Shown piece after piece: positions 29,877 through 46,839 of a DNA stretch of 64,000 bases. Positions within the stretch are counted from its first letter, which is position 1. Each line of letters begins with the position of its first letter. The notes beneath the pieces are model-generated. The model was not told the origin of the DNA and did no database searches. It worked only from the letters and a program-made list of their open reading frames with translations. Made by a program: the position numbers and the translations under genes. The DNA is from Paenarthrobacter sp. Z7-10. GTDB taxonomy: Bacteria > Actinomycetota > Actinomycetes > Actinomycetales > Micrococcaceae. The DNA lies in the NCBI RefSeq assembly GCF_026932795.1, contig NZ_JADPVH010000009.1, positions 17,731-81,730 on the forward strand, in the 5' to 3' direction.

Positions 29877-30947
29877 TCAGGCAGTTTCCGTCTCGCCCAG
29901 CCGGCGGACGCCCTTGGCTTGAGTGGCATCCCGGATCTCGCCCACCAATTGCTCTATGACGTCCTCGAGGAAGAGCACGCCCTGGGTGCGGCCATCCGGG
30001 GAAATGACGCGTGCCAAGTGCGAGCCGGTGCGCTGCATCGTGGCCAGCGCTTCCTCCACGTCGTCTGCGAGGGCCAGATTAGCGAGGGTACGGACCCGGC
30101 TCTCGGCAATGGGTGCTTCGTAGCTGTCCAGCGGAATGGAAATCACGTCCTTGACATGCAGGTAGCCGGTGAGCGTGCCCGCCCCATCGGCCAGCACGAA
30201 GCGCGAGAATCCGGTTCGCCGGACGGCCTGTTCAAACTCCACGGGAGTCGCAGTGGTGCGCAGCGTGACCAATTCCGACAGCGGGACCATAATGTGTTCG
30301 GCCGTATGCGCGGAGAATTCCAGCGCCCCGCTGATCAAACCGGTTTCATCAAAGACCAATCCGTGCCGGGTGGATTCCTCCACGATGGACTGCACCTCTT
30401 CCAGCGTGAAGCTGGAGGACACCTCGTCCTTAGGCTCGACGCGCAACAGCCGCAGCGTGCCGTTTGCCAGCCAGTTCAGTGAATGGATCACCGGCCGGAC
30501 CAGCCTGCCGATGAACACCAGCGGCGGAGCCAGCAGCAGGGCGGCCCGGTCCGCCATGGAAACCGAGATGTTCTTCGGGATCATTTCCCCGAAAGTGACG
30601 TGCAGGAAGGTGACGGCCAGCAGTGCCACCACGAACGTCACGGGCGCCGCAATCTCATCCGGCAGGCCAACCGCGGCAAGCGGACCACCCAATAGGTGGT
30701 GAATGGCCGGCTCGGCCACGTTCAGGATCAGCAGCGAACACACCGTGATGCCCAGCTGCGCACAGGCAAGCATCAACGAGACGTTTTCCATTGCTGCCAG
30801 CGTGGTCTTCGCCCTCGCGGAACCAGCCTCCGCACGCGGCTCAATCTGGCTTCGCCGGGCGGACATGATCGAAAATTCCGCCGCCACAAAGAACGCATTA
30901 CCGGCCAGCAGCAGCACCAGAGCACCCAGTCCGCCCCACTCGCTCAT
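29877..30947 (-). CDS. CNNM-domain protein with CBS pair
   Basis: 356 residues. An N-terminal CNNM (DUF21) membrane domain with about four helices (LVLLLAGNAFFVAAEFSIMS, then FGEMIPKNISVS) is followed by a CBS pair (about residues 205-340). This family is tied to Mg2+ extrusion or homeostasis and was formerly called hemolysin-like. Unlike its neighbour it ends soon after the CBS pair and lacks the CorC_HlyC domain. The start overlaps the upstream gene's stop by 4 bases (ATGA), so the two paralogues are co-translated and may form a heterodimer. Confidence 0.85.
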   Translation of the reverse strand: MSEWGGLGALVLLLAGNAFFVAAEFSIMSARRSQIEPRAEAGSARAKTTLAAMENVSLMLACAQLGITVCSLLILNVAEPAIHHLLGGPLAAVGLPDEIAAPVTFVVALLAVTFLHVTFGEMIPKNISVSMADRAALLLAPPLVFIGRLVRPVIHSLNWLANGTLRLLRVEPKDEVSSSFTLEEVQSIVEESTRHGLVFDETGLISGALEFSAHTAEHIMVPLSELVTLRTTATPVEFEQAVRRTGFSRFVLADGAGTLTGYLHVKDVISIPLDSYEAPIAESRVRTLANLALADDVEEALATMQRTGSHLARVISPDGRTQGVLFLEDVIEQLVGEIRDATQAKGVRRLGETETA

Positions 30948-32554
30948 ACCGCACCACCCTTGCTGGAACGGGCGTCGGCACCCGCGCCGAAGCCACCCTT
31001 GGCGGAACGGGCGTCGGCACCCGCGCCGAAGCCACCCTCGCCGGAACGGGCATCGGCACCTACGCCGAAACCACCCTCGCCGGAACGGGCGTCGGCACCC
31101 GCGCCGAAGCCACCCTCGCCGGAACGGGCATCGGCACCTACGCCGAAACCACCCTCGCCGGAACGGGCATCGGCACCTACGCCGAAACCACCCTCGCCGG
31201 AACGGACATCGGCACCCGCGCCGAAACCACCCTCGCCGGAGGTGCCGCCGTCGACGGCCGCCGAGGTGGGACGGAACCGGATCCGATCGACCCTGCGCCC
31301 CTCCAGCCGCTCAACTTCAAGCGCTCCGCCGTCGATCGCCACCCTGTCCCCCACCGCGGGGATGCGCCCCAGTTCGGCCATGATGAAGCCGCCCAGCGTC
31401 TCATAGCTGGATTCGTCCGGCACGCGCAGCCCGGGAATCTGTTCCGTCACCTCGTCGGGGCGCATCAGGCCGGGGAAATACCAGTCCCCGGAGGCACTCT
31501 GCAGCACGCCGGGCTTGGTGCGGTCGTGCTCGTCCGAGACTTCCCCGACAATCTCCTCGACCAGATCCTCAAGTGTTGTCACACCGGCCGTTCCACCATA
31601 TTCGTCCAGCACCACAGCCAGCTGGAGGTTGCCCTCGCGCAGTTCGGACAGCAGGGAGTCCAGGTGAATGGTTTCCGGCACCCGCAGCACATCGGTCATG
31701 ATCGCGCCCGCCTGCAGCTGGGCCCGCTTGGCGGCCGGAACGGCAATCGCCTTTTTGACGTGCACCACGCCGCGGATGTCATCAGGGGATTCGCCGATCA
31801 CCGGGAAGCGGGAAAAACCCGTCCGCCGGGCCGCTTCGACAATATCGGCTACGGATTGCTCGGACTCTATGGTTTCCACCCGGATTCGGGGCGTCATGAC
31901 GTCCGCGGCTGTCCGGGCTGAAAAACTCAGCGTTTTTGCCACAAAATTCGCGGTCCCCTTGTCCAAAGTTCCCATTGCGGCGGAGCGCCGCACCAGCGAG
32001 GCCAGCTCGGCCGGCGTGCGCGCTCCGGATATCTCCTCCTTGGCCTCCAAGCCGAACACGTTCAGTACCCGGTTGGAGAAGCCGTTGAGCACCACAATGG
32101 CGGGCTTGAAAATGGCCGTGAAGACCAGTTGCGGCCGAGCCACCGCCTTGCCGATCTCCAGCGACAGTGAAATGGCCATGTTTTTGGGGACCAGTTCACC
32201 CATCAGCATCGAGGCAAGCGTTGCCAGCACCATGGCGGCGGTCAGCGAGACAGGTTCAACCGCCGTCGCCGGCAGACCTGCGGCCCGCAACGGCGCAGCG
32301 AGCAGTCCACCCAGCGCCGGCTCCATCACAAAACCGGTGAGCAGCGTGGTCAGCGTGATGCCCAGCTGACAGCTGGAAAGCTGAGTGGAAAGTGACTTCA
32401 GGCAGCGCAGCAGCGGTTCCGCACGGGTGTCACCGTTGCTGATGGCCCGCTGGACGGTGGATTGGTCAAGGGCAACGAGGGAAAATTCGACGGCGACGAA
32501 GAAGCCTGTCCCCAGGATCAGCAGCAGGCCCACGGCCAGCAAAATCCACTCCAT
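30944..32554 (-). CDS. CNNM/CBS/CorC_HlyC protein with C-terminal 13-residue repeats
   Basis: 536 residues. Domain order: CNNM membrane domain ([18 protein letters not shown], then [14 protein letters not shown]), CBS pair (about residues 205-340, with [19 protein letters not shown]), CorC_HlyC domain (about 350-425, [19 protein letters not shown]) and then about 90 residues of tandem repeats SGEGGFG(A/V)GADAR. The core fits the divalent-cation efflux family. The repeat tail is not part of any domain I know and is probably disordered and acidic. Shares ATGA with the downstream paralogue. Confidence 0.85.
30961..31233. repeat. 39-bp tandem repeat, seven units, in frame
   Basis: Seven units of 39 bp lie at the 3' end of the CNNM gene. 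Units differ at a few sites (GGCGTCGGCACCCGC versus GGCATCGGCACCTAC). Because 39 is a multiple of 3, changes in copy number keep the reading frame and only alter tail length. Confidence 0.95.
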
Positions 32555-32851: not shown

Positions 32852-35182
32852 CTAGAGCCGGGTGTCGAAGGAACCACAGAAGACATTCTCGTTGTAGGTT
32901 CCGTGGAACTCCGACGTGCCTTGGATCTTCCCGATCGCAGCGCGGATGGCTTCCGGTGTCGCCGCATGGGCGTGGATCGCCGTTTTCACCATCGGCACGT
33001 CAATCAGGTGGTTTGGCTGATTGAGCGAGACGAAGACCGTGGGTACCTCGGTCACGTACCAGGGAATTTCCGCCGCCATCGGGCTGGACCACTTGATCCG
33101 GATGGCCGCCTCCTGGGCAAAGCCTTTGACGTTGGCAAAAACGAAGGCCGCGTCGTACTTCTGCGCATAGTCTCCGGTCGCTTCCTCGGAGATGACGGAC
33201 AGGAAATTCACGTCTTTTTCGCCGTCGGCCTCGCGTTGTGCGGCGGTCCTGAACACATGGACCTCGAAACCGGCGTTCTCCAACTCCTTGCGAACCACGT
33301 CCAAGTACGCCAGCGGATTCGACCGGGTGAAATCCGCGCCGCCCGAAATCCCGTACAGGCGGATGCGCGGATGGGTCAGCGGAGTAATGGGCAGGATCCC
33401 GGCTGTGTCCTTAATCAGGGTCACGGTCTTGTCCGCGATCGCAGCGGCGACGGCACGGTGCTGTTCGCTGCCCACCAGGGCAAGCGCCTCGACCGGTGCG
33501 ACGATGTCCGCGCGCGGGATTTTGTGCAGCCCCAGGGAAGCCTTCAGCGCCAGGATACGCTGCAGCGCGTCGTGGAGTCGCTCCTCCGTAATGACACCAC
33601 TTGTGTAACCGTCCAGCATGTAGCCGAAGTCCTCCTCCGGGTTACGGAAGAACAAAAACATGTCGCAGCCGGCGGCAATGGTCGCCGGCACCAGGTCCTG
33701 TCGCTTCATGGCCTGGGTCAGGCCCACCATCTGCGACGCATCAGTGAGGATCAGCCCATTGAAGCCCAGCTCCCCGCGCAGCAGATCCTGCAGCAGTTCC
33801 GGGGCGAGCGTGGCCGGCATGACCTGCTGATCTTCCAGACCCGGGCGGAACCGCCGGGACAGTTCCGGCGCACCGATGTGGCCGATCATGATCGACTGGA
33901 CGCCGTGTCCGATCATCTCCCGGTACACCTGCCCGTAGGTCCGGTTCCAGTCGTCGTAGCCCAAAGTGTTGTAGGAGGTGACCACATGCTGGTCACGCTC
34001 ATCCACCCCGTCGCCTGGGAAGTGCTTTATGGCGCAAGCCATTCCCGACTCGCTGATCCCGTCGAAGTACTCCTTGGCCCGCTCGATCACTAGCTCCGGA
34101 TTATTGCCGAAGGACCGGGTGGAGATGACGGTGTTGCGCCAGTTGTAATGGATGTCCACAATCGGTGCGAACGCCCAGTTGCAGCCGATCGCGGTGCATT
34201 CCACGCCAGCTACCCTGCCCATGTCACGGGCGATGCTCTTGTCCGGATGGGAGCCGGCCTGAAGATGTGTGCACACGAAGGTGCCGTCATCGCAGCTGCC
34301 GAAGCCGCCCATCTCCGGGTTGGAGGCCACCAGCAGCGGCACCTTAGTCCTGGACTGGGCGTAGCGGATGTGCTCCTGGACCGCGCTGGCGGGACCGGGC
34401 CGGTAGCGCATGCCGCCTACGTGGTACTTCTCCAGCACGGCGTCGAGGTACTCCGGGGAGAAGTCGTTGTTGTGGTTGATGAACAACTGGCCAATTTTCT
34501 CCGCCAGGCTCATTGAGGCAATCGTGGAGTGCACCCAGGCGACGGCGTCCTCGTCCAGGTTGAACGGGGCCGCCGTCAGGTCCACGCTGAACGGCGCCTG
34601 CCGCCCACGGGCGGGCGTGGCTGAAGCGGGCGCGGCCGCAAGGAGCGGGAGCGCCGCCAGACCGGCGACGGCCGCGGCCACCACCTGATCCACGGGTAAC
34701 GAGATGTCGACGACGACGCCAGCCTCGTCGGAGCCGAGCGGTTCCAACGTGGCCAGCTGGGAATCCAAAAGGGCCGGCGGCATGAAGTGCCCGCTCCGGC
34801 CCTCCAGCCGGGCTTCCAGGACAGCCCTCGTCCCGTTCAGATGCAGGAAGGCAGTATCGGGAGCCTGGGCCCGGATGGCATTCCGGTAGCTGCGTTTGAG
34901 CGCAGAACAGGCGATCACCAGGCCGGCAGCTGAGGCACCGCCGACAGCGCTCGCACCATCGGTTACTCGACCCCCGTCAGCCGCCGCCAGCTCGGCCCCG
35001 ACCTGCGCAAGCCAGGGCCAGCGGTCCTCGTCATTCAGAGGGATGCCGGCTGCCATCTTGGCCACATTTTCCACCGGATGCAGCGCGTCCCCGTCGATGA
35101 ATGGGACGCCCAGCTCTCGAGCCACCAGCGCGCCAATGGTGGTTTTTCCGCAGCCGGAAACACCCATCACTACGACCTTCAC
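32852..35182 (-). CDS. Fused gluconokinase and family 3 glycoside hydrolase
   Basis: One open frame of 776 residues. Residues 1-175 are a complete GntK-type gluconokinase: P-loop [37 protein letters not shown] and [11 protein letters not shown]; it makes 6-phosphogluconate. Residues from about 200 are a GH3 beta-N-acetylhexosaminidase-like domain: [14 protein letters not shown] with the acid/base loop, and TDASQM with the likely nucleophile Asp. The joint (about 164-192) is Ala-rich, [16 protein letters not shown], and resembles the end of a signal peptide. An internal GTG (34691-34693) could start a separate GH3, but without a good ribosome site. Shares ATGA with manD. Confidence 0.85.
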
Positions 35183-36408
35183 CAGTCATGCACCGTGCCG
35201 TCTGCCAGGCGATTGTAGGGCAGGTAGGCCTGCTGGTAGGGGAAGGAGGCGGCAGCCTCCTCGTTGAGCTCGATGCCCAGGCCCGGCTTGTCCCCCGGGT
35301 GCAGGAAGCCGTCGGCGAAGGTCATTGACTGCTCAAAGACTGTGTTTGTGGCTTCACTGTGCTCCATGTACTCCTGGATGCCAAAGTTATGGATGGCAAG
35401 ACCCAGATGGGTCTGCGCGGCCAAACCCACCGGCGAAACATCGGTAGGGCCATGGAAGCCGGACTTAATCTGATACTGCGCGGCGTAGTCCATCACCTTT
35501 TTCAGCGGCGAGATGCCGCCGAAGTGGGTGGAAGCAGCGCGCACGTAGTCGATCAGCTGTTCCCGGATCAGCGTCTGGAAGTCAAAGACGGTATTAAAGA
35601 CCTCCCCCACGGCCAGCGGGGTGGTGGTGTGCTGGCGGACCAACCGGAACGCATCCTGGTTCTCCGCGGGAGTGCAGTCTTCCAGCCAGAACAAGTCATA
35701 CGGTTCCAGCGATTTACCGAGCTTGGCCGCCTGGATGGGCGTCATCCGGTGGTGACCGTCGTGCAGCAGCGGAATTTCTGGGCCGAATTCATTGCGGACC
35801 GCCTCGAAGACGGTGGGCACATGCCGCAGGTAGGCGCGGGTATCCCAGTCCTCCTCCGCGGGCTGCGGCCCGCGGCCGGCCGGTTCATAATCGTAGCGCT
35901 CACCGGTGGCTTGGGCCTGCGCAGCGACGCCATACAGCGCCTTGATGCCCGGAACGGATGTCTGCACCCGAATGGACTTGTACCCCTCCTCCAGATGCTG
36001 GCGGATGGAGTCAAAGAGCTCCGGGATATCCCGGCCCGATGCATGCCCGTAGGTTTGCAAAGCCGTCCGGGAGGCGCCGCCGAGAAGCTGGTAGACGGGC
36101 ATTCCCGCAACTTTGCCCTTGATGTCCCACAACGCCATATCCACGGCTGCAATGGCCGCCATTGTCACGGGTCCACGGCGCCAGTACGCGCTGCGGTACA
36201 GGAACTGCCAGGTGTCCTCGATGCGGTGTGGGTCCCGCTCAATGAGCAGCGGCACCACGTGCTCGGTGAGGTACGCCGCAACGGCGAGCTCACGGCCGTT
36301 CAGGGTGGCATCCCCCAGCCCAGTCACGCCCTCATCCGTGGTGATCTTGAGCGTGACAAAGTTCCGGGAGGGGCTGGTGACAATCACATCGGCGGCAATG
36401 ATCTTCAT
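35179..36408 (-). CDS. manD: D-mannonate dehydratase (enolase superfamily, ManD-like)
   Basis: 409 residues of the mandelate racemase/enolase superfamily. Features of ManD: Mg-ligand segments [23 protein letters not shown] and AVGEVFNT, and the conserved [16 protein letters not shown] and [12 protein letters not shown]. It dehydrates D-mannonate to 2-keto-3-deoxygluconate, the step after fructuronate reductase. The ATG at 36406-36408 has AAGGA upstream and gives MKIIAADV as start. The uxaC and uxuB genes close by make the mannonate role likely, although some family members act weakly on other sugar acids. Confidence 0.88.
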
Positions 36409-36459
36409 GGTGTTCCTTTCGGGTCCTTCCAACGGTGGCGCGGGCGGCGCACGAAGCGC

Positions 36460-37948
36460 TTAGAGCATATCTTTGGGACTGGGCACAGCGGTAGGCAGAT
36501 CCTGCCGGGATGGATCGCCGGCACCGTGATCGTCGGCAGCGTAATCACCGTCAACGGGCGCTGACGCGGACTTCGCAGCGCGGCGGGCGGTGATCTCGGC
36601 GACGATGTCCTTGTGACGAGCATCCGTCAACGGGTAGGCGAGCATCACAGCGATGGCCAGCAGTCCGAAAGCGGCAGGCAGCAGGCCTGCACCGGCGCGG
36701 ATCCCCAATGTGGCTTCGGCAGTCTGGACCCCGGCGCCCGCCGCGTAGCCGCCCCAAGCCAAGGCATAGGCAGCCAGGGCGCCGCCCACCGCCTGCCCGG
36801 TCTTCCGCGTGAAGGAGAAGAGCGCGTAGGTGATGCCTTCAGTGCGCACATGAGTCTTCCACTCGCCGTATTCAACGGTATCCGCCTCCAGCGCCCAGAC
36901 AAGCATGTTGATCATCAGGATGCCAAACTGCGTGATGACCACACCGACGAAGGCCAACGGCACCACGTTGGCCGGGGCGAAAAAGACGATCAGACCGCCC
37001 GCCACCATGACCAGACCCGAGTAGACGTAGGTCTTCTTTTTGCCCAGCTTGCGGACAATCAACGACAGCACACTACCCATGCCAAAGGTCAGGACGATGT
37101 TGACGATGGACAGCGCCGCGTACAACGGCAGCGCGTGCAGCACGTCGCGGAAGTAGTAAATCTGGACTGTGCCAACGGCGAGTTGCCCGGTCAGGAACAA
37201 GAAGGAGCTCACACAGAGCATCAGTAGCGGCTTGTTGCCCTTGAGCGTGGCCAGGCTCTGTTTGAAACTGACCTTGGGCACCTCGCGGACCACCCGTTCC
37301 CTGGTGGAGAGCGCGGTGAACAGGTACAGCGCGGCGCCGATCACCACGAAGATGAGCGTCATGGTGGTGAACAGCGGTTGAAGGTCAACCCCGTGCACCA
37401 TCCGTGGTGCAATGAAGATCCCCAGAAGGGATCCGACGGTCACGGCGCCGATGGTGCGCGCACCGGCCAGCTTGGCCCGCTCGGAGGAGACCTGTGTCAT
37501 GGCTCCGGCCAGCGAACCGTAGGGAATATTAACCATGCTGTACGCCAGCCCCAGCAACGTGTAGCTGACGTAGGCCCAGAGCAGCATACCCGTCTGGCCT
37601 ATCTGCGGAATGGAAAAGCTGGCCGCGCTCAACAGCAGCAGAGGAACCGAGCCGAACATTATTGAAGGGACGGAATTTACCGAATTTCCGGCTGTAGGTT
37701 TTGTCCACCATGCGGCCGGCGAAGAGGTCGGAGAACGCGTCGAAGATCCGCACCACCAGCAGCAACGTGCCCGCTGCTGCGGCGCTGATCCCGGCCACGT
37801 CCGTGTAGTACAGCAGCAGGAACATGGTCGCCGTGGTGAAGGCCAAGTTGTTGGCTGCGTCCCCCGCTCCATAGCCGACGATACTGACCTTGGACAGCGG
37901 CTTGAGCGTCTCATTCATGGCCTGCCGGGAATCGTTTAGTGTCCTCAT
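36460..37948 (-). pseudogene. GPH-family sugar/hexuronide:cation symporter, frame-shifted
   Basis: Two overlapping frames together make one glycoside-pentoside-hexuronide symporter. The 5' part starts at ATG 37948 (AAGGAG upstream) with [20 protein letters not shown] and runs to [12 protein letters not shown]. The 3' part continues as [15 protein letters not shown] to SPKDML in the next frame. Between FRPF and FGSVP there are 7 bases where 6 are expected, so one extra base lies near 37657-37663. No slippery heptamer is present. It would have imported hexuronates or glucuronides with Na+ or H+. A sequencing error remains possible, in which case the gene is intact. Confidence 0.8.
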
Positions 37949-38047
37949 GGTGGGCTCCTTTACCCGTTGCTCATCATCGAGCAGGTTCTGCTGGTTCATC
38001 GTGTGCGGTGGCTGCTTCCGGACACTGCATGTGAGCTGACGTACTTA

Positions 38048-38234: not shown

Positions 38235-38286
38235 AAGGGAATCCGCGTCGACCGTCACGGTCGAAATCCGCTCCAACTATCTGTAT

Positions 38287-38440
38287 ACTGTGCCGTCTTA
38301 CTGTGCCGTCTTACTGTGCCGTCTTACTGTGCCGTCTTACTGTGCCGTCTTACTGTGCCGTCTTACTGTGCCGTCTTACTGTGCCGTCTTACTGTGCCGT
38401 CTTACTGTGCCGTCTTACTGTGCCGTCTTACTGTGCCGTC
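38287..38440. repeat. 13-bp tandem array, about 12 units, at the uxuB stop
   Basis: Eleven identical units of ACTGTGCCGTCTT and a twelfth of 11 bases. Read on the minus strand, each unit is GACGGCACAGTAA, that is the last uxuB codons and its TAA stop, so the array looks like repeated copies of the gene's own end. No spacers or diverged units occur; it is not a CRISPR. Confidence 0.95.
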
Positions 38441-40041
38441 GCGGCACTGATGCCAACCGCCATCGACTCCACGAGGTCCAGCACTCTTTGGTCAGCGGCC
38501 AGTTCGGGATCCAGCAGCCCAAGCAGGGCACGGGCGTCCCGCCCGGCCGGCAGATTCAGGGCCTGGACAAGCTGCCCTGCGGCAGCGTCCTGAATCTGGC
38601 CACCCGTGGCGTGCCTTGCCCGAAGATAGGCCAGCCAGGAACCGATCATTCTGGCGGCCCCGGTCCCCGATCTGCCCGCTGCCAGCTCCGCCTTCAGGAC
38701 CGGGATGGCACGCATCCGCAGCTTGCTGGATCCGTCCATGCCAATCTGCGCCAGATAGTGCGCGATTCTGCCATTGCTGAACCGCCTCAGCAATGCTTCG
38801 CGGTACGCCGGGATATCCAAGCCGGCGTCGGGCAGATTCGCCTCTGCCTCGTCCCAGAACTCGGTCACCCACGCCCGGCATTCAACGTCTGCCAGCGCCT
38901 GCGCCACTGTCTCGTGGCCGCGCAGGCTACCGGCGTACGCCAGGAGCGAGTGCGCCCCATTGAGGAGCCAGAGTTTGCGGTTTTCGAAAGGTTCAATATC
39001 GTCCACAAAGACCGCTCCGGCGGCACCCCAGTCCGGCCGGCCGGCCGGGAACTCTCCGCTCAGCACCCAATTGGAAAACGGCTCCGTCACCACAGGCGAG
39101 CTGTCCTGAAAGCCGGTCTCCGCCGCAACCAGGCGGATCTCTTCGGCCGTTGTTCGCGGGGTGATCCGATCCACGGAGGTGCCCACAAATGACACGTTTT
39201 CCTGGATCCAACGGGCCAGCGCCGGGTCCACCGCTAAGGCCAGACCATGAATGGCTGCCTCGACCGCGGTACGGTTATTGGCCAGGTTATCGCAGGAGAC
39301 AACCGCAATAGGACCTGCTTCGGAGCGCCGCCGGGCGGCCAGCGCGAACACCAGCCGGCCGGCCGCCGTCGTCGGCCCGCCTTCCGCTCCGTCTCCCGGT
39401 CCGCGTCCCAACCCGCCTTCCGCTCCGTCTCCCGGTCCGCGTCCCAACCCGCCTTCCGCTCCGTCTCCGGGTCTGTTTCCCGGCCCGAATTCCGCACCGT
39501 TTTCCGGTCCGTTTTCAGGCCCGGCTCCCGGCCCGAATTCCGCACCGCCGTCCGCGCTTCCGTCGACCCTTTGACCGTGGCCGGCTTCTGCCACAGAGGC
39601 AAATGCGACGCCGAGACGCTCAATATCCGTCCTCACTGCGGGATTTGCCATGTCCAGCGAGCCCTGTGCATCGAGATTGTAGGCGGCTTCCGTGATGGTG
39701 AGAGTCACCAGCGCCGTGCTGGGTGCGGCGACCAGCTCCGCCAGCCGGGTGACGTCGGCGCCGTCGTGGGCCTGAACAATGCTGGCGATGACTTCGAAGG
39801 TGTCGCCGTCGTCAGCCCTTTCGATGAGGGTGTAAAGCCCGTCTTGGTCAGCCAGCGCCACGGCGGCGTCAGGACGCCTTCCGGTAAAGGCGGCAATACC
39901 CCATTGCCCGGAAGGGTCCGCGCGCTGGGTGTACCAGGCCTGGTGCGCCCGGTGGAAGGCTCCTAGACCGAGGTGCACGATCCGCACCGGCGCCGCGGGG
40001 CGGGTATCAAAGGTTGCCCGGCTCAACTGCGGCTGATTCAT
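38428..40041 (-). CDS. uxuB: Fructuronate reductase / mannitol dehydrogenase family
   Basis: 537 residues of the polyol-specific long-chain dehydrogenase family. N-terminal NAD domain VRIVHLGLGAFHRAHQAWY (about residues 19-37); C-terminal domain with PFSNWVLSGEF, KLWLLNGAHSLLAYAG and RFSNGRIAHYLAQIGMDGS, carrying the catalytic Lys/Asn/His set. It reduces fructuronate to mannonate. An insert of about 70 residues (about 153-223), rich in Gly/Pro/Glu/Asn and partly encoded by a 36-bp repeat, splits the N-terminal domain. The ATG overlaps the uxaC stop. The C-terminus and TAA lie in the 13-bp array. Confidence 0.88.
   Translation of the reverse strand: MNQPQLSRATFDTRPAAPVRIVHLGLGAFHRAHQAWYTQRADPSGQWGIAAFTGRRPDAAVALADQDGLYTLIERADDGDTFEVIASIVQAHDGADVTRLAELVAAPSTALVTLTITEAAYNLDAQGSLDMANPAVRTDIERLGVAFASVAEAGHGQRVDGSADGGAEFGPGAGPENGPENGAEFGPGNRPGDGAEGGLGRGPGDGAEGGLGRGPGDGAEGGPTTAAGRLVFALAARRRSEAGPIAVVSCDNLANNRTAVEAAIHGLALAVDPALARWIQENVSFVGTSVDRITPRTTAEEIRLVAAETGFQDSSPVVTEPFSNWVLSGEFPAGRPDWGAAGAVFVDDIEPFENRKLWLLNGAHSLLAYAGSLRGHETVAQALADVECRAWVTEFWDEAEANLPDAGLDIPAYREALLRRFSNGRIAHYLAQIGMDGSSKLRMRAIPVLKAELAAGRSGTGAARMIGSWLAYLRARHATGGQIQDAAAGQLVQALNLPAGRDARALLGLLDPELAADQRVLDLVESMAVGISAATAQ
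39377..39470. repeat. 36-bp in-frame repeat inside uxuB
   Basis: Two exact 36-bp units (39377-39412, 39413-39448) and a partial third encode GLGRGPGDGAEG in the UxuB insert. The following bases on the same strand are more diverged versions (GPENGAEFGPG). Confidence 0.85.
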
Positions 40042-41534
40042 AGTTTGAAGGCCCTCCGCGGCGCCGCGTCGACGATGTCGACAATAATGTCGGCGGCCCG
40101 GGTCTCGGAGATCCGGCGCTCGGCAACCAGCCGGGCCAGGAAAGAGGCTTCGATCCGCCGGGAGGTGTTGTGCCGGGCCGGAATGGAGCAAAAGGCCCGG
40201 GTATCGTCGATGAACCCGGAGGACCGGGAGAAGCCAGCCGTCTCGGTGACCGCGGAGCGGAAGCGCAACATGGCATCCGGGGCATCAAGGAACCACCAGG
40301 GCGCGCCAATGTAGACCGCGGGGTAAAAGCCCGCCAGCGGCGCGATCTCCCGGGAAAATACCGTTTCGTCCACGGTAAAGGGGATGAAGTGGAAGCCCGG
40401 AACCGTGCCGAAGTCCTCCAGCAGGGGCCGGAGCCCTTCGGTGAAGCTGACTGGAAAGGGGATGTCATGCCCCGTATCTGCGCCGAACGATTCAAAGGTG
40501 GGGCGGTGGTGGTTGCGGAAAACACCGGGATGCAAAGTCATCACCAGTCCGTCCGCCACCGACATCCGCGCCATCTGATACATCATGTGCGCTTCAAATG
40601 CATCCGCATCCTCTGCGGTTGCGTCGCCTCGCCGGGCCTTATCGAACAGGGCCTGGGCCTGCTCTGCCGGCAGTTTCAGAGTGCCGGCGGTCCGGGATCC
40701 ATGATCGGCGGAAACGGCGCCATGATTGACAAAGTACTGGCGCCGGTTTTCCAGTGCCTGCAGGTAGCCGGGATAACCGCTGTGGCCATCTCCAGCCACG
40801 GAGATCAGGCGTTCCACCCGCTCCGCCCAGCCGGCCGCATGAAACTTAATGTAAGCATCCGGTCGGAAGGTTGGCAGGACCCGACCCGGAAAGGTTGGGT
40901 CCGCTGCCAGGGCAGCGTGGGCCGACAGGTCGTCCAGCGGGTCGTCGGTGGTGGCCAGCACCTCAATGTTGAAGTCGCTGAACAGCTTCCGTGGACGGAA
41001 GTCCGGCTCCCGCAGCCGGGCACTGAGCTGGTCAAAGAGCCCGTCCGCAACGCCGTCGTCCGCGGCCGGCGTGATGGCATCGAGGGCGGAAATGTCCAAT
41101 CGGAAAACATGTTCAAATTCCTGCCGGAACCAATAGCCCGACGCCGTACCCTCGAACAACGGCCATGCTTTGACGAACGCCCGCCAGACATCGCGGCCGG
41201 CTCGGGCCGCGTCAATTCCGGCACCGGCTATCGCTCCGGCTCCAGTTCCGGCGGCAGCAGGTTCAGGCAGGGACGTTGGGTTTCGGACGCCGAGACTGTG
41301 CAGTGGAATTCCGCTGGCGTGAATCACCCTCGTGACGTAGTGATCCGGAGTCACCAGCAGCGTTGCGGGATCCGGAAAGGGAGTATTCCTCAGGATCATG
41401 GCCGCGTCCACATGTCCATGTGGCGAAAGGATGGGCAGTTGTTCCACCAGAGCCAACAGACGCCGGGCAATGGCCCGGGTGCCTGGATCGGCCGGCAGCA
41501 GCCGGTCTGGTTCGGCGGCAATGTTCTCTGACAT
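40038..41534 (-). CDS. uxaC: Glucuronate isomerase
   Basis: 498 residues of the UxaC family, a metal-dependent TIM-barrel of the amidohydrolase superfamily. It isomerises glucuronate to fructuronate (and galacturonate to tagaturonate). Typical segments: LPILSPHGHVDAAMILRN with the HxH metal pair, SDFNIEVLATTDDPLDDL, TLHPGVFRNHHRPTF and RDTRAFCSIPARH-like FIDDTRAFCSIPARHN. Its length is near that of family members, with a short Ala-rich insert (AAGTGAGAIAGAGIDAA). No ribosome site precedes the ATG and the predicted promoter places +1 at the ATG. It shares ATGA with uxuB. Confidence 0.92.
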   Translation of the reverse strand: MSENIAAEPDRLLPADPGTRAIARRLLALVEQLPILSPHGHVDAAMILRNTPFPDPATLLVTPDHYVTRVIHASGIPLHSLGVRNPTSLPEPAAAGTGAGAIAGAGIDAARAGRDVWRAFVKAWPLFEGTASGYWFRQEFEHVFRLDISALDAITPAADDGVADGLFDQLSARLREPDFRPRKLFSDFNIEVLATTDDPLDDLSAHAALAADPTFPGRVLPTFRPDAYIKFHAAGWAERVERLISVAGDGHSGYPGYLQALENRRQYFVNHGAVSADHGSRTAGTLKLPAEQAQALFDKARRGDATAEDADAFEAHMMYQMARMSVADGLVMTLHPGVFRNHHRPTFESFGADTGHDIPFPVSFTEGLRPLLEDFGTVPGFHFIPFTVDETVFSREIAPLAGFYPAVYIGAPWWFLDAPDAMLRFRSAVTETAGFSRSSGFIDDTRAFCSIPARHNTSRRIEASFLARLVAERRISETRAADIIVDIVDAAPRRAFKL

Positions 41535-41626: not shown

Positions 41627-42688
41627 TCAAACCGAAGGTGCGGGCCCGCTGGACCCTCGAATCACCAATTCGGTGGACAACCCTCCCCGGGGCGGCGGCG
41701 GCGAGGTTCCAGCCAAGTCGGCAAGGATCAGGGCGAGCGACGCCGCACCGGCGTCGCGCAGTGGCGACTTGATCGTCGACAGTGGCGGAGTGGTGAAATC
41801 AGAACCAAAGATATTGTCAAAGCCCACAATGCTGACATCGCCGGGAACCTGCACGCCGGCCAGCTGCAACTCCCGCATCAGTCCGATAGCCATCAAGTCG
41901 TTGTAGCAAATCACGGCCGTGGCACCGCCGGACCGAACCGATGCTGCGGCCTGTCGGCCGCCTTCCACGGTCGGATTACCGGAACTGATTTTTTCCACTT
42001 CCAGTGAGGACCACTGACAGCGTTCACGGATGCTTTCCCAACGGTGTCCGGACATCCATGATCGTTCCGGTCCGGCAACATAGGCCAGCTTCTTGTGGCC
42101 CAGCCCTGCCAAATGCCTGACCGCTTCGCTGACTCCGGTCTGGATTTCCGCGACCACACTGTGCACATCGCGCACCGAGCGGTTAAGGACCACCACAGGT
42201 TTCCTGCCGGCCAGTTCCTGGATCTGGTCATCCGACAGCCGTGGGCTGGCCAGGATGATCCCATCCACGGTGCTGATGATCCGCTTCGCAGCCAACAGTT
42301 CCGTCTCCGCTGATTCCGCCGACTCGGCCAGCAGCAGCGTGTAGTTCCGTTCCGACGCGGCTGCTTCGGCCCCACGGATGACGTCGAAATACATTGGGTT
42401 GGTGATGTCGGAGACGATCAGGCCAACCGTATTGGTCCTGCCGGTGGGAAGCGCACGGGCGAAGGTATTCACCTGGTAGTTCAGCTCGGCCGCCGCGTCC
42501 TCGATTTTCTTCTGCGTCTTAACACTGACGCGGCCGGGATTGCTCAACGCCCGCGACACAGTGGATGCGTTCACACCGGCGGCCTTGGCAATGTCATAGA
42601 TGGTTGCCGGTGCTCCGGACGGCCGGCTCCGGCCCACGTGCGCGGCTTCGGCACCGGGCTCAGCGTGCTGTGGTGCATTCTGGCTCAC
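41627..42688 (-). CDS. LacI-family transcriptional regulator (1)
   Basis: 353 residues. The helix-turn-helix ATIYDIAKAAGVNASTVSRA (about residues 23-42) and hinge are followed by a periplasmic-binding-like ligand domain (TVGLIVSDITNPMYFDVIRG through VSIVGFDNIFGSDFTTPPL). It should repress sugar genes until bound by a sugar or sugar acid. The GTG at 42686-42688 has AGAGG 6 bases upstream; the frame continues to 42898 but crosses a candidate operator. It sits just upstream of uxaC and is the likely regulator of the hexuronate genes; an operator-like site lies in its own upstream region. Confidence 0.88.
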   Translation of the reverse strand: MSQNAPQHAEPGAEAAHVGRSRPSGAPATIYDIAKAAGVNASTVSRALSNPGRVSVKTQKKIEDAAAELNYQVNTFARALPTGRTNTVGLIVSDITNPMYFDVIRGAEAAASERNYTLLLAESAESAETELLAAKRIISTVDGIILASPRLSDDQIQELAGRKPVVVLNRSVRDVHSVVAEIQTGVSEAVRHLAGLGHKKLAYVAGPERSWMSGHRWESIRERCQWSSLEVEKISSGNPTVEGGRQAAASVRSGGATAVICYNDLMAIGLMRELQLAGVQVPGDVSIVGFDNIFGSDFTTPPLSTIKSPLRDAGAASLALILADLAGTSPPPPRGGLSTELVIRGSSGPAPSV

Positions 42689-42829
42689 GCCAACCTCTTT
42701 CCCTTGGGACGGTTGCACCGCCGTGCTCCGGCGAAGTACCCCCGAACCGGTCTTATCTCCACCCTGGATTCCGGGGCTCGGATGATTCCGGGACTCGGGC
42801 AATTCAATTTTTTGGCTCCACGGTCCGGC

Positions 42830-42847
42830 TTTGCAGCCGGTTGCCAG
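42830..42847 (-). promoter_or_regulatory. Degenerate LacI-type operator upstream of regulator 1
   Basis: CTGGCAACCGGCTGCAAA on the minus strand matches the island operator at most positions (two or three changes). It lies about 140 bases before the lacI GTG. No convincing -10 was seen at 17 bases, unlike the other sites. Confidence 0.45.
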
Positions 42848-42900
42848 CATAACCCAGTTGGGCGCCACTCCCCTCCCAACTTCCAGCCCACGGCCCACAG

Positions 42901-42937: not shown

Positions 42938-43942
42938 CTATCCGAACGGCACCGCAGCCGGATAGGACTGGGCGTAGACGTCCTTAATGATCCGCAGCGA
43001 CTTCAGTGCCTCCGACGGCGAAATCCAGAACGCACCGGGCTCGTCCAGCGTTCGGTAGAAATCCTGGATCAGCAGCGCATGTGAGGCACCCCAATACGCC
43101 CGGCCGTCGGTAACGGCCTCCCGTTCCGGGACCACATCGACCCGGCCATCGGCATAGCTCACGGTCAACGCGCCGCGCAGGTTCAGGACCGCCTTTTCGG
43201 TGTATATATCCAACGTCACCGGCGCATTGACGGCGTTGGCCAGGGTTGCGTAGAAAACGCTGCGGGCCCCGTTGGCATGCGTTAAGGAAAGGTCGGCTGT
43301 GTCCTCAACTTCAATGACGCCGGCCAGGGCACGAGTTCCCGCATGTCCGCGGACTTCTGTCACCTCCCCAACCAGCCACTGCAGCAGATCCAGTGTGTGA
43401 ATGGCCTGATTCATCAGCAATCCCCCACCGCCGGTGGACCATTGACCGCGCCATGGCCGGTCCAGGTAGTAAGCGGGAGTCCGCGACCACATGACAGTGC
43501 CGGCAGCACCGGTGACCGCGCCCAGTCCCCCATCGCCCAGCAGCGACGCCATCGCCTGCACGGGTGCGTTGTAGCGGTTTTGGAAGCACACCCCGATCCG
43601 GGCCGAGCTTCGGGCGGCAGCCTGGACCAGCCGCTTTCCCCCGGCCAGGGTGTGGGACAGCGGTTTTTCCAGAATCACGTTGATCCCGCGCTCCAGAGCC
43701 GCAATGGCCATCGCCGCATGCTGATGGTGCGGAGTGCAGATGTGCACCACGTCCGGGTGGACCGCATCCAACAAAGTTTCGTAGTCCTCGTACGCCGCCA
43801 CGCCATGGTGCGCCACGGCGGCGGAGCGACGGTCCAGATCCGGATCGCAGACGGCGGCCAGCTCAATTCCGGGGCTTGCTGAAATCGCGCCGAAGTGAAC
43901 GGCCGACACATCTCCGCAGCCAATTACCGCTGCTGTGCGCAT
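42938..43942 (-). CDS. Gfo/Idh/MocA-family oxidoreductase (A)
   Basis: 334 residues. N-terminal NAD(P)-binding TAAVIGCGDVSAVHFGA, the family's catalytic-lysine motif VILEKPLSHTL (about residues 93-103), and the substrate-domain pattern GGGGLLMNQAIHTLDLLQW. The family oxidises or reduces sugar hydroxyls, often at C3 of glycosides or inositols. ATG at 43942 with AGGAGG 5 bases upstream. Last of four genes alternating isomerase-dehydrogenase-isomerase-dehydrogenase; 19 bases after the previous one. Substrate unknown. Confidence 0.82.
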   Translation of the reverse strand: MRTAAVIGCGDVSAVHFGAISASPGIELAAVCDPDLDRRSAAVAHHGVAAYEDYETLLDAVHPDVVHICTPHHQHAAMAIAALERGINVILEKPLSHTLAGGKRLVQAAARSSARIGVCFQNRYNAPVQAMASLLGDGGLGAVTGAAGTVMWSRTPAYYLDRPWRGQWSTGGGGLLMNQAIHTLDLLQWLVGEVTEVRGHAGTRALAGVIEVEDTADLSLTHANGARSVFYATLANAVNAPVTLDIYTEKAVLNLRGALTVSYADGRVDVVPEREAVTDGRAYWGASHALLIQDFYRTLDEPGAFWISPSEALKSLRIIKDVYAQSYPAAVPFG

Positions 43943-43961
43943 CATTCCTCCTCAGCCCCGG

Positions 43962-44873
43962 TCAGCCACGCGGGCGGCGTTCCGGGTCCAATGCACTCTG
44001 CGCCCAGACAAAGGACATTTTGTGCGACTCGTACAGCGAATCAACACTGGGCTGATCCACCTCGATCATGTAGTCGCCGTCGTAGGTCGCCGGCATGGCG
44101 GCAAGCACGGCGTCAAAGTCCAGCACACCCAGCCCCGGCTCCGCCCACAGCCGTTTCGTGGCAGACACCTCAAAGTACCCCATCCCGGCACGGGATGCCG
44201 GTTCCAGATAGTCGGCGAAGACGTCCTTAATGTGGATCCCTCCGATCCGGTCCGCGTAGCGGCGGATCATCGCGGCTGGATCCATGCCGGCCCAGCGCAG
44301 GTGGCCCGTATCGGGACCAAAGCCGATCACGTCTGGGCCGAGGGTGTCCAGCAGCGCGGTGATTTCCGCTTCCGTTTCAAAGACACCGCCGATGTGGGAA
44401 TGATGCAGCGGCCGCAGCCCCTCGGACTGCAGCGCCTGGCAGACAATGCCCACATTCTCGATGGCCAGCCGCAGCCGGTCTTCGCTGAAGTCCGCCCCGA
44501 CGGCGGGCTGTGCCAGCCTGGCGGGCAGCGACATCGAGGAAACCATCGTCCGGTCCAGTCCCAGCGCCAGCTGGTCTGGCGCAAAAGCCTTGGCCCTTTC
44601 CACTTCATCCGCGATCCGGATTGTTTCGTCAAAGGGCGAATTGAACAGGCTCAGCGCGGGGGCGAGGCCGTAACCGGCGATCCAGCCGGCGTAATCCGCA
44701 GCAGACATGCCGTCCGGAACATCGGCCTTGACCGCGGTGAATCCGATCTCCTGGAAGTCCCTAAAAGCCGTCTCAAAGACCGCCTTGGACTTGTCCGTTT
44801 TACCACCTCTGGACCAGTACGGAATGGGATTGGCCGCCACCTTCGGTGTGCGTGCCTGCGTTGCCTCGTTCAT
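43962..44873 (-). CDS. Sugar phosphate isomerase/epimerase (IolE-like TIM barrel) (B)
   Basis: 303 residues of the AP-endonuclease-2-like TIM-barrel family. IolE-type features are visible: an N-terminal ANPIPYWSRGG, HHSHIGGVFET, GFGPDTGHLRWAG, GGIHIKDVF and YMIEVDQPS, which carry the probable metal ligands. Members include inosose dehydratase and hydratases/eliminases acting on 3-keto sugars. The ATG overlaps the stop of the upstream dehydrogenase (4 bases). An inositol-like or 3-keto-sugar substrate is inferred from this pairing. Confidence 0.8.
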   Translation of the reverse strand: MNEATQARTPKVAANPIPYWSRGGKTDKSKAVFETAFRDFQEIGFTAVKADVPDGMSAADYAGWIAGYGLAPALSLFNSPFDETIRIADEVERAKAFAPDQLALGLDRTMVSSMSLPARLAQPAVGADFSEDRLRLAIENVGIVCQALQSEGLRPLHHSHIGGVFETEAEITALLDTLGPDVIGFGPDTGHLRWAGMDPAAMIRRYADRIGGIHIKDVFADYLEPASRAGMGYFEVSATKRLWAEPGLGVLDFDAVLAAMPATYDGDYMIEVDQPSVDSLYESHKMSFVWAQSALDPERRPRG

Positions 44874-45994
44874 GATGTCTGGTCCTTTGGTTGTGCAGTC
44901 CCGCTTTGGCGCAGGCTTACCGGCTGGCCGGTTCGGGCCGATTCGTAGGCCGCCAGGATGACGCTGACGGACCGCCGATTTTCGGCCAGGCCAACCCGGA
45001 TTTCCTCGTCGCCGCGCAGCGCGGCCAGGAAGTTGAGATATTGGTGGCGGTGCGCGTCCGAGAGCTGGCCGGGATTGGCGCCGGCGGCGGCGGCCCGATC
45101 GTTCCCCAGGTCGTACTGATCCAGTTGGTTGCTCGGGCCGGAGGAACCGAAGAACGCTTCCGTACTCTCGGTCCCTTGCGGCGTGGTGTGGATGTAGGTC
45201 AGCTTGTCATTGTCGATGACGGCCGAGCCCTTGTCCCCGTGCACCTGCAGCCGCGCGCTGAGGCCAGGGAACGCCGCCGTCGAGCCGTGCAGCACGCCCA
45301 GGGCGCCGCTTTCAAACTTCACCACGCCGACGGCGACATCCTCCACCTCGATGCGTTCATGCGCCAAAGTGGCGGTGTAGGCAAAGACCTCCACCGGGTT
45401 CCCCAGCGCGGCGACGAGCAGGTCCACGGTGTGGACCCCCTGGTTCATCAGCGCCCCGCCGCCGTCCAGCGCCCAGGTGCCGCGCCAATCGCCCGAATCG
45501 TAGTAGGTCTGTCCCCGCCACCAATCGATCGAGGCAATACCGGATGTCAGCCGGCCCAGCTCGCCCTTCCGGATGGCCTCCAGCACAATCTCGGTGGAGG
45601 GATCGAAGCGGTGCTGCGAAATGACGGTGACCAGTGTGCCGGCCTGCTGCTGAGCGGCAATGATCTCGTCCGTCTTAGCCAGCGTGACCTCGGCCGGCTT
45701 TTCGATGATCACGTGCTTGCCGCTGTGCAGCGCCTCGATGGCCACCTCGGCATGCGCCCCGGTCGGGGTGCAGACGGCGACGGCGTCGAAGTCGGTCCCG
45801 GCCAACGCCTCGGGCAGCGAGGTATAGACGGTCCCGCCGTATTGGGCGGCGATCTTGTCGGCCTTGGCACGGTCCAGGTCGACGACGGCGACCAGGTCCA
45901 GCTCGTCGGCGAGTTCGCGCATGACGGTTCCGTGCTGGTTGCCGATGATGCCGGCGCCCACCAGGGCGAAACGGACCTTATTGGGGATGCTCAT
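44870..45994 (-). CDS. Gfo/Idh/MocA-family oxidoreductase (C)
   Basis: 374 residues. NAD(P) motif RFALVGAGIIGNQHGTVM near the start, catalytic-lysine motif VIIEKPAEVTL (about residues 96-106) and GGGALMNQGVHTVDLLVAALG in the substrate domain. It is distinct from gene A, with a longer C-terminal part (RHQYLNFLAALRGDEEIRVG). Probably performs the opposite or complementary redox step to gene A. It overlaps both neighbours by 4 bases, so the module is tightly coupled. Confidence 0.82.
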   Translation of the reverse strand: MSIPNKVRFALVGAGIIGNQHGTVMRELADELDLVAVVDLDRAKADKIAAQYGGTVYTSLPEALAGTDFDAVAVCTPTGAHAEVAIEALHSGKHVIIEKPAEVTLAKTDEIIAAQQQAGTLVTVISQHRFDPSTEIVLEAIRKGELGRLTSGIASIDWWRGQTYYDSGDWRGTWALDGGGALMNQGVHTVDLLVAALGNPVEVFAYTATLAHERIEVEDVAVGVVKFESGALGVLHGSTAAFPGLSARLQVHGDKGSAVIDNDKLTYIHTTPQGTESTEAFFGSSGPSNQLDQYDLGNDRAAAAGANPGQLSDAHRHQYLNFLAALRGDEEIRVGLAENRRSVSVILAAYESARTGQPVSLRQSGTAQPKDQTS

Positions 45995-46839
45995 GAGAGG
46001 GTGACTCCTATCGTTGTGGCCAGGGCAGCAAAGGCTCGGGCGGCCTGGCCGAAGGCCACCGGGCCGGAAAAGCCGCCAAGCGCATGGGTGTCGGCAAGGT
46101 GCGGTTCCAGCGACGCGAACCCGCGGTAGCCGTCGTCGCGCAAGGCCGTCAGCGTTTCCAGCAGTTCTCCATCGCCGTGTCCGGCCGGCACCACCTCGCC
46201 GGTGGCAAGCAGCGCATCCTTGACCTGCAGGTATTCCAGGTGCGGGCGCAGCATGGCGTAGCCGGCGCTGAACGGACGCACCCCCACTTGGACAAAGTTG
46301 GCCGAGTCCCAGGCAACTTTCAGCGCCGGCGAGCCGACCGACTCGACGATGTCCAGGACCCGCTCCGGGGTGTCTCCGTAGATGTCTTTTTCATTTTCAT
46401 GCAGCAGCACCACGCCGGAGCGCTCGGCCTCATCGGCCAGCAGCCGCATCCGGGACAGCACGTCGTCGCGGGTGTCTTCGACCGGGACTCCGTCGGCGCG
46501 GTAGAAGGAAAAGACCCGGACATACTTCGTCTCCAGCACGTTGGCCACGCCGATCACCCGGCGCAACCGCTCCAATTCGAGATCAGCGTCCAGCGCCACG
46601 TCCACCTTGCCGATGGGCGAGGCAACCGCTGAAACCATTACCCCCCTCGTATCCAGGGTCTTCTTGAGCGCGGCCGTCTGATCCGGTTCCAGATCAACGA
46701 CATTGACGCCCCACGCGCTGCGCACCTCGATATGGCGCGCGCCCAGGGCGAGCAGCACGGAGGCCTGCAGATCGGGGTTGGGGTCGATTTCGTCGCCAAA
46801 CCCGGAGAGCGTCCAGTTGAGTGCATCATCGGTGTTCAT
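45991..46839 (-). CDS. Sugar phosphate isomerase/epimerase (TIM barrel) (D)
   Basis: 282 residues. Metal-site segments typical of the family: LLHENEKDIYGDTPE, KVAWDSANFVQVG, YLQVKDALLATG and GFASLEPHLADTHALGG. First gene of the four-gene module, directly downstream of a predicted LacI-controlled promoter. It is only distantly similar to gene B, so the two barrels likely catalyse different steps such as an elimination and a hydration, or an isomerisation. Substrate unknown. Confidence 0.8.
   Translation of the reverse strand: MNTDDALNWTLSGFGDEIDPNPDLQASVLLALGARHIEVRSAWGVNVVDLEPDQTAALKKTLDTRGVMVSAVASPIGKVDVALDADLELERLRRVIGVANVLETKYVRVFSFYRADGVPVEDTRDDVLSRMRLLADEAERSGVVLLHENEKDIYGDTPERVLDIVESVGSPALKVAWDSANFVQVGVRPFSAGYAMLRPHLEYLQVKDALLATGEVVPAGHGDGELLETLTALRDDGYRGFASLEPHLADTHALGGFSGPVAFGQAARAFAALATTIGVTLS

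Follow-up and report, generated by a model that had tools for sequence, protein, structure and literature searches.

A conserved in-frame fusion of a gluconokinase-family kinase and a BglP-type family 3 glycoside hydrolase in uronate operons of Arthrobacter-type bacteria

Introduction

BglP (BglX; PDB 5VQD and 5VQE) acts on beta-glucosides by phosphorolysis and is one of two characterised phosphorylases of glycoside hydrolase family 3 (GH3); in the accessible part of the source, the His of the Asp-His motif is tied to phosphorolysis in both Nag3 and BglP (PMC8950772). Relatives of the same GH3 subfamily are found in Demequina and Opitutaceae behind an N-terminal sugar-phosphate enzyme, beta-phosphoglucomutase. 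Another GH3 protein, SN243 (PDB 7QE1, 7QEA), was crystallised, according to the entry titles, with fluorescein-di-beta-D-glucuronide as ligand. Among sugar-acid kinases, the gluconokinases of the GntK/IdnK type are represented by the model TIGR01313 and by the structures 3T61, 4EUN and 1KNQ. A GntK homologue was proposed as a mannonate kinase in a uronate route of Lactobacillus suebicus, and no fusion is reported in the accessible part of that paper (PMC6978723). In Arthrobacter sp. PAMC25564, a 2.3-kb GH3 gene named "beta-glycosyl hydrolase" lies about 2.8 kb from a GH2 beta-glucuronidase gene, and the accessible part of the description does not mention a kinase half (PMC8171050). A literature search by title and abstract opening, mostly outside subscription journals, returned no paper on a GntK-GH3 fusion.

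In this study, we analyzed such a fusion in a stretch of 64,000 nucleotides from Paenarthrobacter sp. Z7-10, hereafter the window. It differs from BglP in possessing a kinase domain, in having Arg rather than Met at residue 259, and in its location in a uronate operon, whereas the activity shown for BglP is on beta-glucosides. The kinase half resembles GntK/IdnK in model score, P-loop and SGHFMP motifs, but is joined to GH3 and takes the operon slot of a 2-keto-3-deoxygluconate kinase. SN243 shares the GH3 fold, but has only about 20% identity, a longer chain and a different GH3 subfamily. In the beta-phosphoglucomutase fusions, the N-terminal domain is unrelated (HAD) and the GH3 part is about 40% identical. 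The L. suebicus kinase likewise belongs to a uronate pathway, but mannonate was proposed as its substrate, while the ManD of the window is predicted to yield 2-keto-3-deoxygluconate.

Results

Architecture of the fused gene

The fused gene occupies positions 32852..35182 on the minus strand, as do all features given below, and consists of 776 codons plus stop, with a GTG start and no internal stop. The kinase half (residues 1-172; 34667..35182) matches the NCBIfam gluconokinase model TIGR01313 with 179 bits over residues 3-172 (cut-off 113.75) and carries the P-loop GVSGCGKT at residues 7-14 (35141..35164). Its nearest solved relatives are 3t61, 4eun and 1knq, which are named gluconokinase, thermoresistant glucokinase and gluconate kinase. 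An Ala/Gly-rich linker follows (residues 173-197; 34592..34666) and leads into a full-length GH3 half with its C-terminal domain (residues 198-776; 32855..34591), which matches Pfam PF00933 with 189 bits over residues 226-545 (cut-off 27) and is covered to the C-terminus by the BglP structure 5vqd, the nearest solved GH3. The Glyco_hydro_3 domain and the Asp nucleophile place this half in GH3, and the Asp-His motif together with a two-domain fold like that of 5VQD places it in the BglP type. The motif with the predicted Asp-His acid/base pair (D397, H399) lies at 33986..34027, the predicted nucleophile D481 in TDAS, which aligns with the TDAT motif of BglP, at 33740..33742, and the candidate specificity residue R259, recognised by clade-wise residue comparison, at 34406..34408. 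The reading frame and the two domain matches bear out the preliminary description of a stop-free frame from a complete GntK into a complete GH3; that description is right in its anatomy and wrong in its history.

The AlphaFold model of the fused protein has a mean pLDDT of 89.9 and falls below 50 at residues 185-195 of the linker, where disorder is predicted. It was used in place of an earlier structure model built from 57 rows, whose mean pLDDT at the active site was 72.1. Comparison of the fused protein with a viral structure library gave nothing useful. The database copy of the protein has 771 aa and starts at a Met five codons downstream of the GTG. The fused gene is a new two-domain variant built from known families.

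Distribution of the fusion

A search of 5.8 billion proteins found at least 120 relatives of 748-792 aa. The P-loop and the motif KHFPGDG were both present in all of the best 120 matches, which were listed, and the named organisms among these matches were Arthrobacter, Pseudarthrobacter or unassigned Micrococcaceae. This is a genuine and conserved fusion that several genera have in common, namely Arthrobacter, Pseudarthrobacter and Paenarthrobacter. The presence of fused relatives in many other genomes rejects an assembly or sequencing error at the joint and excludes a missing base as the cause of the fusion. A single fresh deletion in the genome of strain Z7-10, as earlier supposed, is ruled out by the sharing of the fusion across genera.

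Comparison with related genomes, which the preliminary description had proposed as a check, found GH3 of the fusion type in 29 of 295 genomes of the family (E up to 1e-60). Eighteen of them have an in-frame joint, one of which (G251) has a stop inside GH3; seven carry separate gntK and GH3 genes, three have GH3 without gntK ahead, and one copy is decayed. Among 107 loci from two overlapping collections (L006 and L052, for instance, represent one contig), a script classed 82 as fused, 14 as split and 11 as lacking gntK, and for the 80 named loci it gave 65, 7 and 8. L115 and L122 were scripted as split and belong by sequence to the fused group, with frameshifts outside the joint. Breaks outside the joint are also found in L124 and in L032 and L095, the latter two having a stop inside GH3. 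The sister genomes of the window show further states: the fusion is decayed in G003, manD and gntK are still together in G002 and G004 without a whole GH3, and G001 lacks gntK, its GH3 frame having as first start codon the GTG that overlaps manD. In the split operons L041, L043, L049-L051 and L118-L120, a second gntK of its own clade was observed directly behind GH3.

Genomic context

The operon in the window has the order LacI, uxaC, uxuB, GPH symporter, manD and gntK-GH3. The LacI-type regulator at the operon head (41627..42898) matches LacI-family models, none over its own cut-off. Glucuronate isomerase UxaC (40038..41534) scores 531 with NF002794 (cut-off 387) and D-mannonate dehydratase ManD (35179..36432) scores 695.6 with NF043051 (cut-off 550), while the uxuB-like fructuronate reductase (38428..40041), recognised by its Pfam Mannitol_dh domains and bearing an internal repeat insert, reaches 255 bits with NF011611, under the cut-off of 603. 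The stop of manD and the start of gntK share four bases, GTGA, at 35179..35182. The adjoining GPH importer noted in the preliminary description is present (36460..37999), but its gene is split over two reading frames with a break near 37660, which is either real decay or a sequencing error. The C-terminal part of the importer scores 274 with TIGR00792 (cut-off 231), and a score of 431 with the glucuronide transporter model NF007353, under the cut-off of 528, makes it glucuronide-transporter-like.

Several repeats were seen near these genes. In the uxuB coding frame, 36-bp repeats at 39376-39511 give rise to a low-complexity insert in the dehydrogenase, and a perfect 13-bp tandem repeat of 11.9 copies, TACTGTGCCGTCT, occupies 38286-38440 in the GPH-uxuB interval and extends up to the stop codon of uxuB. 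A 39-bp tandem repeat of 7.4 copies at 30953-31240 codes for the Gly-rich tail of a membrane protein (30944-32554, minus strand), which we take to resemble the CNNM/hemolysin-C type. Genes for Gfo/Idh oxidoreductases and isomerase-like TIM barrels, of which two were scanned, follow one another over 42938-46839 on the minus strand. Genes of similar appearance are adjacent to GH3 in Okibacterium (L127) and in Arcanobacterium (L201), and a 3-keto-glycoside route may be involved.

Within about 5 kb upstream of GH3 in 71 named loci, manD was found in 64, gntK in 63, uxuB in 54, GPH in 43 and uxaC in 21, the last count being low since the place of uxaC is often past the flank. In 54 of these loci manD occurs together with uxuB or uxaC. 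The seven loci without manD are L106 (A. agilis) and six from Microbacteriaceae, which have the same GH3 without matches to the operon's uronate genes. Outside this set, a run in Arcanobacterium canis contains GPH, a 44% identical GH3, HAD-like, uxuB-like, uxuA, eda and PfkB kinase genes and the start of uxaC, so that a PfkB kinase fills the slot held by GntK in the window. The other three outlying GH3 neighbourhoods hold GPH, GH3 and a farther uxuB-like gene; GPH and GH3; and none of these genes beside GH3. Three of the 30 genomes carrying GH3 or its remnants, two with the fused and one with the split form, have a GH2 beta-glucuronidase that passes the cut-off of NF007538. In each case its gene shares the strand of gntK and is located 2.8-2.9 kb upstream of the gntK start. 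Since these genomes have both enzymes, GH3 may serve another substrate. The genome of strain Z7-10 also encodes two Eda-type aldolases, and no 6-phosphogluconate dehydratase was found in it beyond one IlvD-like gene.

The operon context points to catabolism of beta-glucuronides. Our best explanation, advanced tentatively, is a cytoplasmic two-domain enzyme, in which GH3 would free glucuronate from imported beta-glucuronides and the kinase would phosphorylate the 2-keto-3-deoxygluconate made by ManD.

Selection and phylogenetic analysis

A length filter reduced the 83 fused rows, with that of the window among them, to 81; it left out L032 and L095 and retained L124 despite a lack of about 50 residues near the C-terminus. 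The 81 rows represent 71 different genes. Counted from residue 166 up to the conserved VDL, the joint spans 15-53 residues and occurs in 21 lengths, with the frame kept throughout. As the 71 genes are in frame by choice of the set, stronger evidence for frame keeping is that the sole joint stop seen among loci of the fused group is in the decayed G003 copy. Ala makes up 28% and Gly 17% of the linker. The GntK and GH3 halves are under purifying selection, with median dN/dS values of 0.15 and 0.10, respectively (2079 pairs with GH3 dS of 0.1-1.0); the linker, at a median of 0.71 (1900 pairs), is almost unconstrained. Both active sites keep their motif residues: G7, C11, G12 and K13 of the P-loop and the nucleophile D481 are identical in 71/71, and K386, H387, D397 and H399 are invariant. 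A joint active site or tunnel is not expected, because the linker is a variable spacer; the likelier benefit would come from equal dosage and nearness.

The GH3 tree was constructed from 88 rows, with L122, L032 and L095 left out as too short, and the tree tests were performed on hand-picked subsets of 50 rows for monophyly of the fused form, 42 and 40 for the conflict between kinase and GH3, and 34 for manD. Split forms are basal in the GH3 tree, next to the fused clade. Holding the fused rows and their GH3-only offshoots together gives a p-AU of 0.655, and the constrained tree scores higher. On GH3 a single origin of the fusion is thus not rejected, and several independent fusions are not needed; two origins are still allowed by the positions of S. 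cremeus (L039/L126) and strain 35W (L037/L105), both close to the split forms.

The kinase and GH3 trees conflict. One kinase clade comprises 17 halves, most of them from Paenarthrobacter and its relatives (SH-aLRT 95, and 100 for the nine tested), yet the corresponding GH3 halves do not group (p-AU 1.5e-9). A GH3 clade with support 99 unites L044, L086 and L093 with L074 and L089, a grouping that is rejected on the kinase (p-AU 1e-42). In the manD tree the rows with a swapped kinase are not grouped, the test being borderline (p-AU 0.0517). The simplest reading of these trees is that a divergent kinase replaced the kinase half in several lineages, with no loss of frame at the joint; alternatively, fusions duplicated long ago may have been lost selectively.

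The history of the locus bears on whether the fusion brings any gain. It is possible, if doubtful, that the border was lost by chance and that two independent domains have been carried along neutrally. This would agree with a linker that evolves almost freely in sequence and length, with two apparent departures of GH3 from the fusion (one in G001, the other in the G115/A. agilis lineage), and with the persistence of split operons in seven of the 29 GH3-bearing genomes. However, the main fused GH3 clade contains no working split pair, the sole split-labelled row nested inside it being the frameshifted fused copy L115, and the frame was kept through the kinase replacement.

The GH3 half

Many database entries of this group still bear the name of the beta-N-acetylhexosaminidase NagZ, which was rejected here, as NF003740 gives 118 bits against a cut-off of 207. 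A BglP-like phosphorylase yielding a beta-sugar 1-phosphate, which would fit either kinase substrate, is regarded as somewhat unlikely. It is suggested by the invariant Asp-His acid/base motif, whose His is the one linked to phosphorolysis in Nag3 and BglP in the accessible part of PMC8950772, by BglP being the nearest structure, and by the relatives fused to beta-phosphoglucomutase. Demequina has a beta-phosphoglucomutase fused in front of this GH3 subfamily, with the TIGR01990 cut-off passed by three of four tested, and beta-glucose 1-phosphate as a product fits this arrangement. The long beta-phosphoglucomutase-GH3 form was found in 20 of 120 relatives among the matches listed, including Opitutaceae.

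The Arthrobacter-type clade is nevertheless set apart from the mutase-fused one by N236, R259, H306 and H312. Residue 259 is Arg in 87 of 88 rows of the fusion clade versus 0 of 19 beta-phosphoglucomutase-fused rows; Arg is also found in L186-L190, and Met in L191, BglP and the mutase-fused relatives. A beta-phosphoglucomutase partner encoded in the same genomes was rejected, since none of the 30 genomes with GH3 or its remnants has one over the cut-off and only one weak match was seen. Moreover, the operon's UxaC takes free glucuronate, and the presence of uxaC favours the predicted release of free glucuronate by the GH3 half.

The in-frame mutase fusions include L192, L194-L197, P0121-P0135 and P0141-P0148, not all of them of the long form. 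In Actinomycetaceae, an HAD-like protein directly follows GH3 (L199, 7735-8640; L201, 7867-8787), with a weak Pfam match in L201 and none in L199, and it might handle a sugar 1-phosphate.

The kinase half

By its operon position, 2-keto-3-deoxygluconate would be the likeliest substrate of the kinase half. The established 2-keto-3-deoxygluconate kinase KdgK has the PfkB fold, while this half belongs to the GntK family; a GntK-family kinase may still do the job of KdgK. That the kinase is instead a true gluconokinase, attached to a GH3 which cleaves a beta-glycoside of gluconate or glucose (for example a cellobionate-like aldonic disaccharide) and phosphorylating the gluconate, appears unlikely. 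Such a reading draws on the TIGR01313 score and on the beta-glucosides used by BglP. Nearly all kinase motif residues are also common to unfused paralogues in the same genome, one of which is linked to a gluconate permease, and because the fused kinase differs so little from them, gluconate may be the real substrate. Kinases nearer to known 2-keto-3-deoxygluconate kinases also exist elsewhere in the genome, which makes the ketodeoxygluconate reading less sure. Fourteen PfkB match places were found, of which 13 (all except L146) were scored against NCBIfam, ten of them as matched stretches, and none of the 13 reached a KDG-kinase cut-off. The nearest are L134, with 190 of 400 bits, and the gene L142/L144 on contig C53, about 3 kb from an eda gene, with 79 of 400 bits on a piece.

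The neighbouring genes speak against gluconate. The operon partners of the kinase are uronate enzymes, gntK remains with manD where a whole GH3 is absent, no gluconate permease was found among five scanned operon genes (0/5), and a GntP-linked gluconokinase is encoded elsewhere in the genome. For the kinase half, the operon suggests a sugar acid other than gluconate.

The joint

Seven split operons with printed DNA have their GH3 start at ATG, GTG or TTG, a few codons ahead of the conserved VD, and an AGGAG site precedes it in six of the seven; in L125, L127 and L130 (Microbacteriaceae), GH3 can start at the codon just before VD. This clear site of the split form is gone in the fused genes, and so the joint appears to have replaced the gntK stop and the ribosome site. 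The earlier claim that the gntK stop and the GH3 start were deleted holds in that both are gone in fused genes, but the event was not recent in this genome.

The preliminary description further took the joint for the end of a signal peptide. Never-fused GH3 relatives begin 1 to about 10 codons ahead of VDL, and no hydrophobic leader was seen in their sequences as read by eye. A mean hydropathy of 2.0 over 12 residues at the joint is reached in 23 of 113 scorable rows among the 120 listed, the window included, indicating that a hydrophobic joint is not conserved. A signal-peptide origin of the linker is ruled out by these two observations, and the leaderless relatives also reject a secreted GH3.

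That GH3 is additionally made alone from an internal start, such as the GTG named in the preliminary description, is very improbable: although some in-frame ATG, GTG or TTG lies between residue 150 and VDL in 71/71 fused genes and a weak Shine-Dalgarno-like match (at least 4 nt) precedes one in 32/71, ATG occurs there in only 11/71, with a 4-nt site in 1/71 and a 5-nt site in 0/71, and none of the four candidate codons at the window joint has such a site.

Discussion

Returning to the glucuronide-cleaving two-domain enzyme, we infer that the starting point was an operon with gntK and GH3 already adjacent, and that the gntK stop, the GH3 ribosome site and the GH3 start were then lost. GH3 would afterwards have been made solely from the gntK start, which overlaps manD, so joint synthesis of ManD, kinase and GH3 is predicted; the GTGA overlap may couple translation of manD and gntK. 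The proposed route would run from import by GPH through cleavage by GH3 to UxaC, UxuB and ManD, then to the GntK-type kinase, and finally to an Eda aldolase encoded elsewhere. A coupling of sugar release to phosphorylation in one polypeptide, as put forward in the preliminary description, is plausible in this putative form.

A wider proposal is that BglP-type GH3 serves as a recurrent fusion platform, combined with beta-phosphoglucomutase on the one hand and with an exchanged GntK kinase on the other. The Arthrobacter-type proteins would then unite a glucuronide-cleaving GH3 and a GntK-family 2-keto-3-deoxygluconate kinase, a single polypeptide both opening and closing the pathway. We consider this combined proposal speculative and distinctly unlikely to hold in full.

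The fused architecture, together with the conflicting automatic names (gluconokinase, beta-N-acetylhexosaminidase, glycosyl hydrolase), hides the likely pathway of at least 120 database protein clusters. If the proposed functions are true, the family would offer a natural test of what is gained by fusing both ends of a pathway, because fused, split, kinase-less and GH3-less versions occur in close relatives. It would also be a starting point for finding new GH3 enzymes that act on glucuronides in the cytoplasm, and possibly a ketodeoxygluconate kinase of the GntK family.
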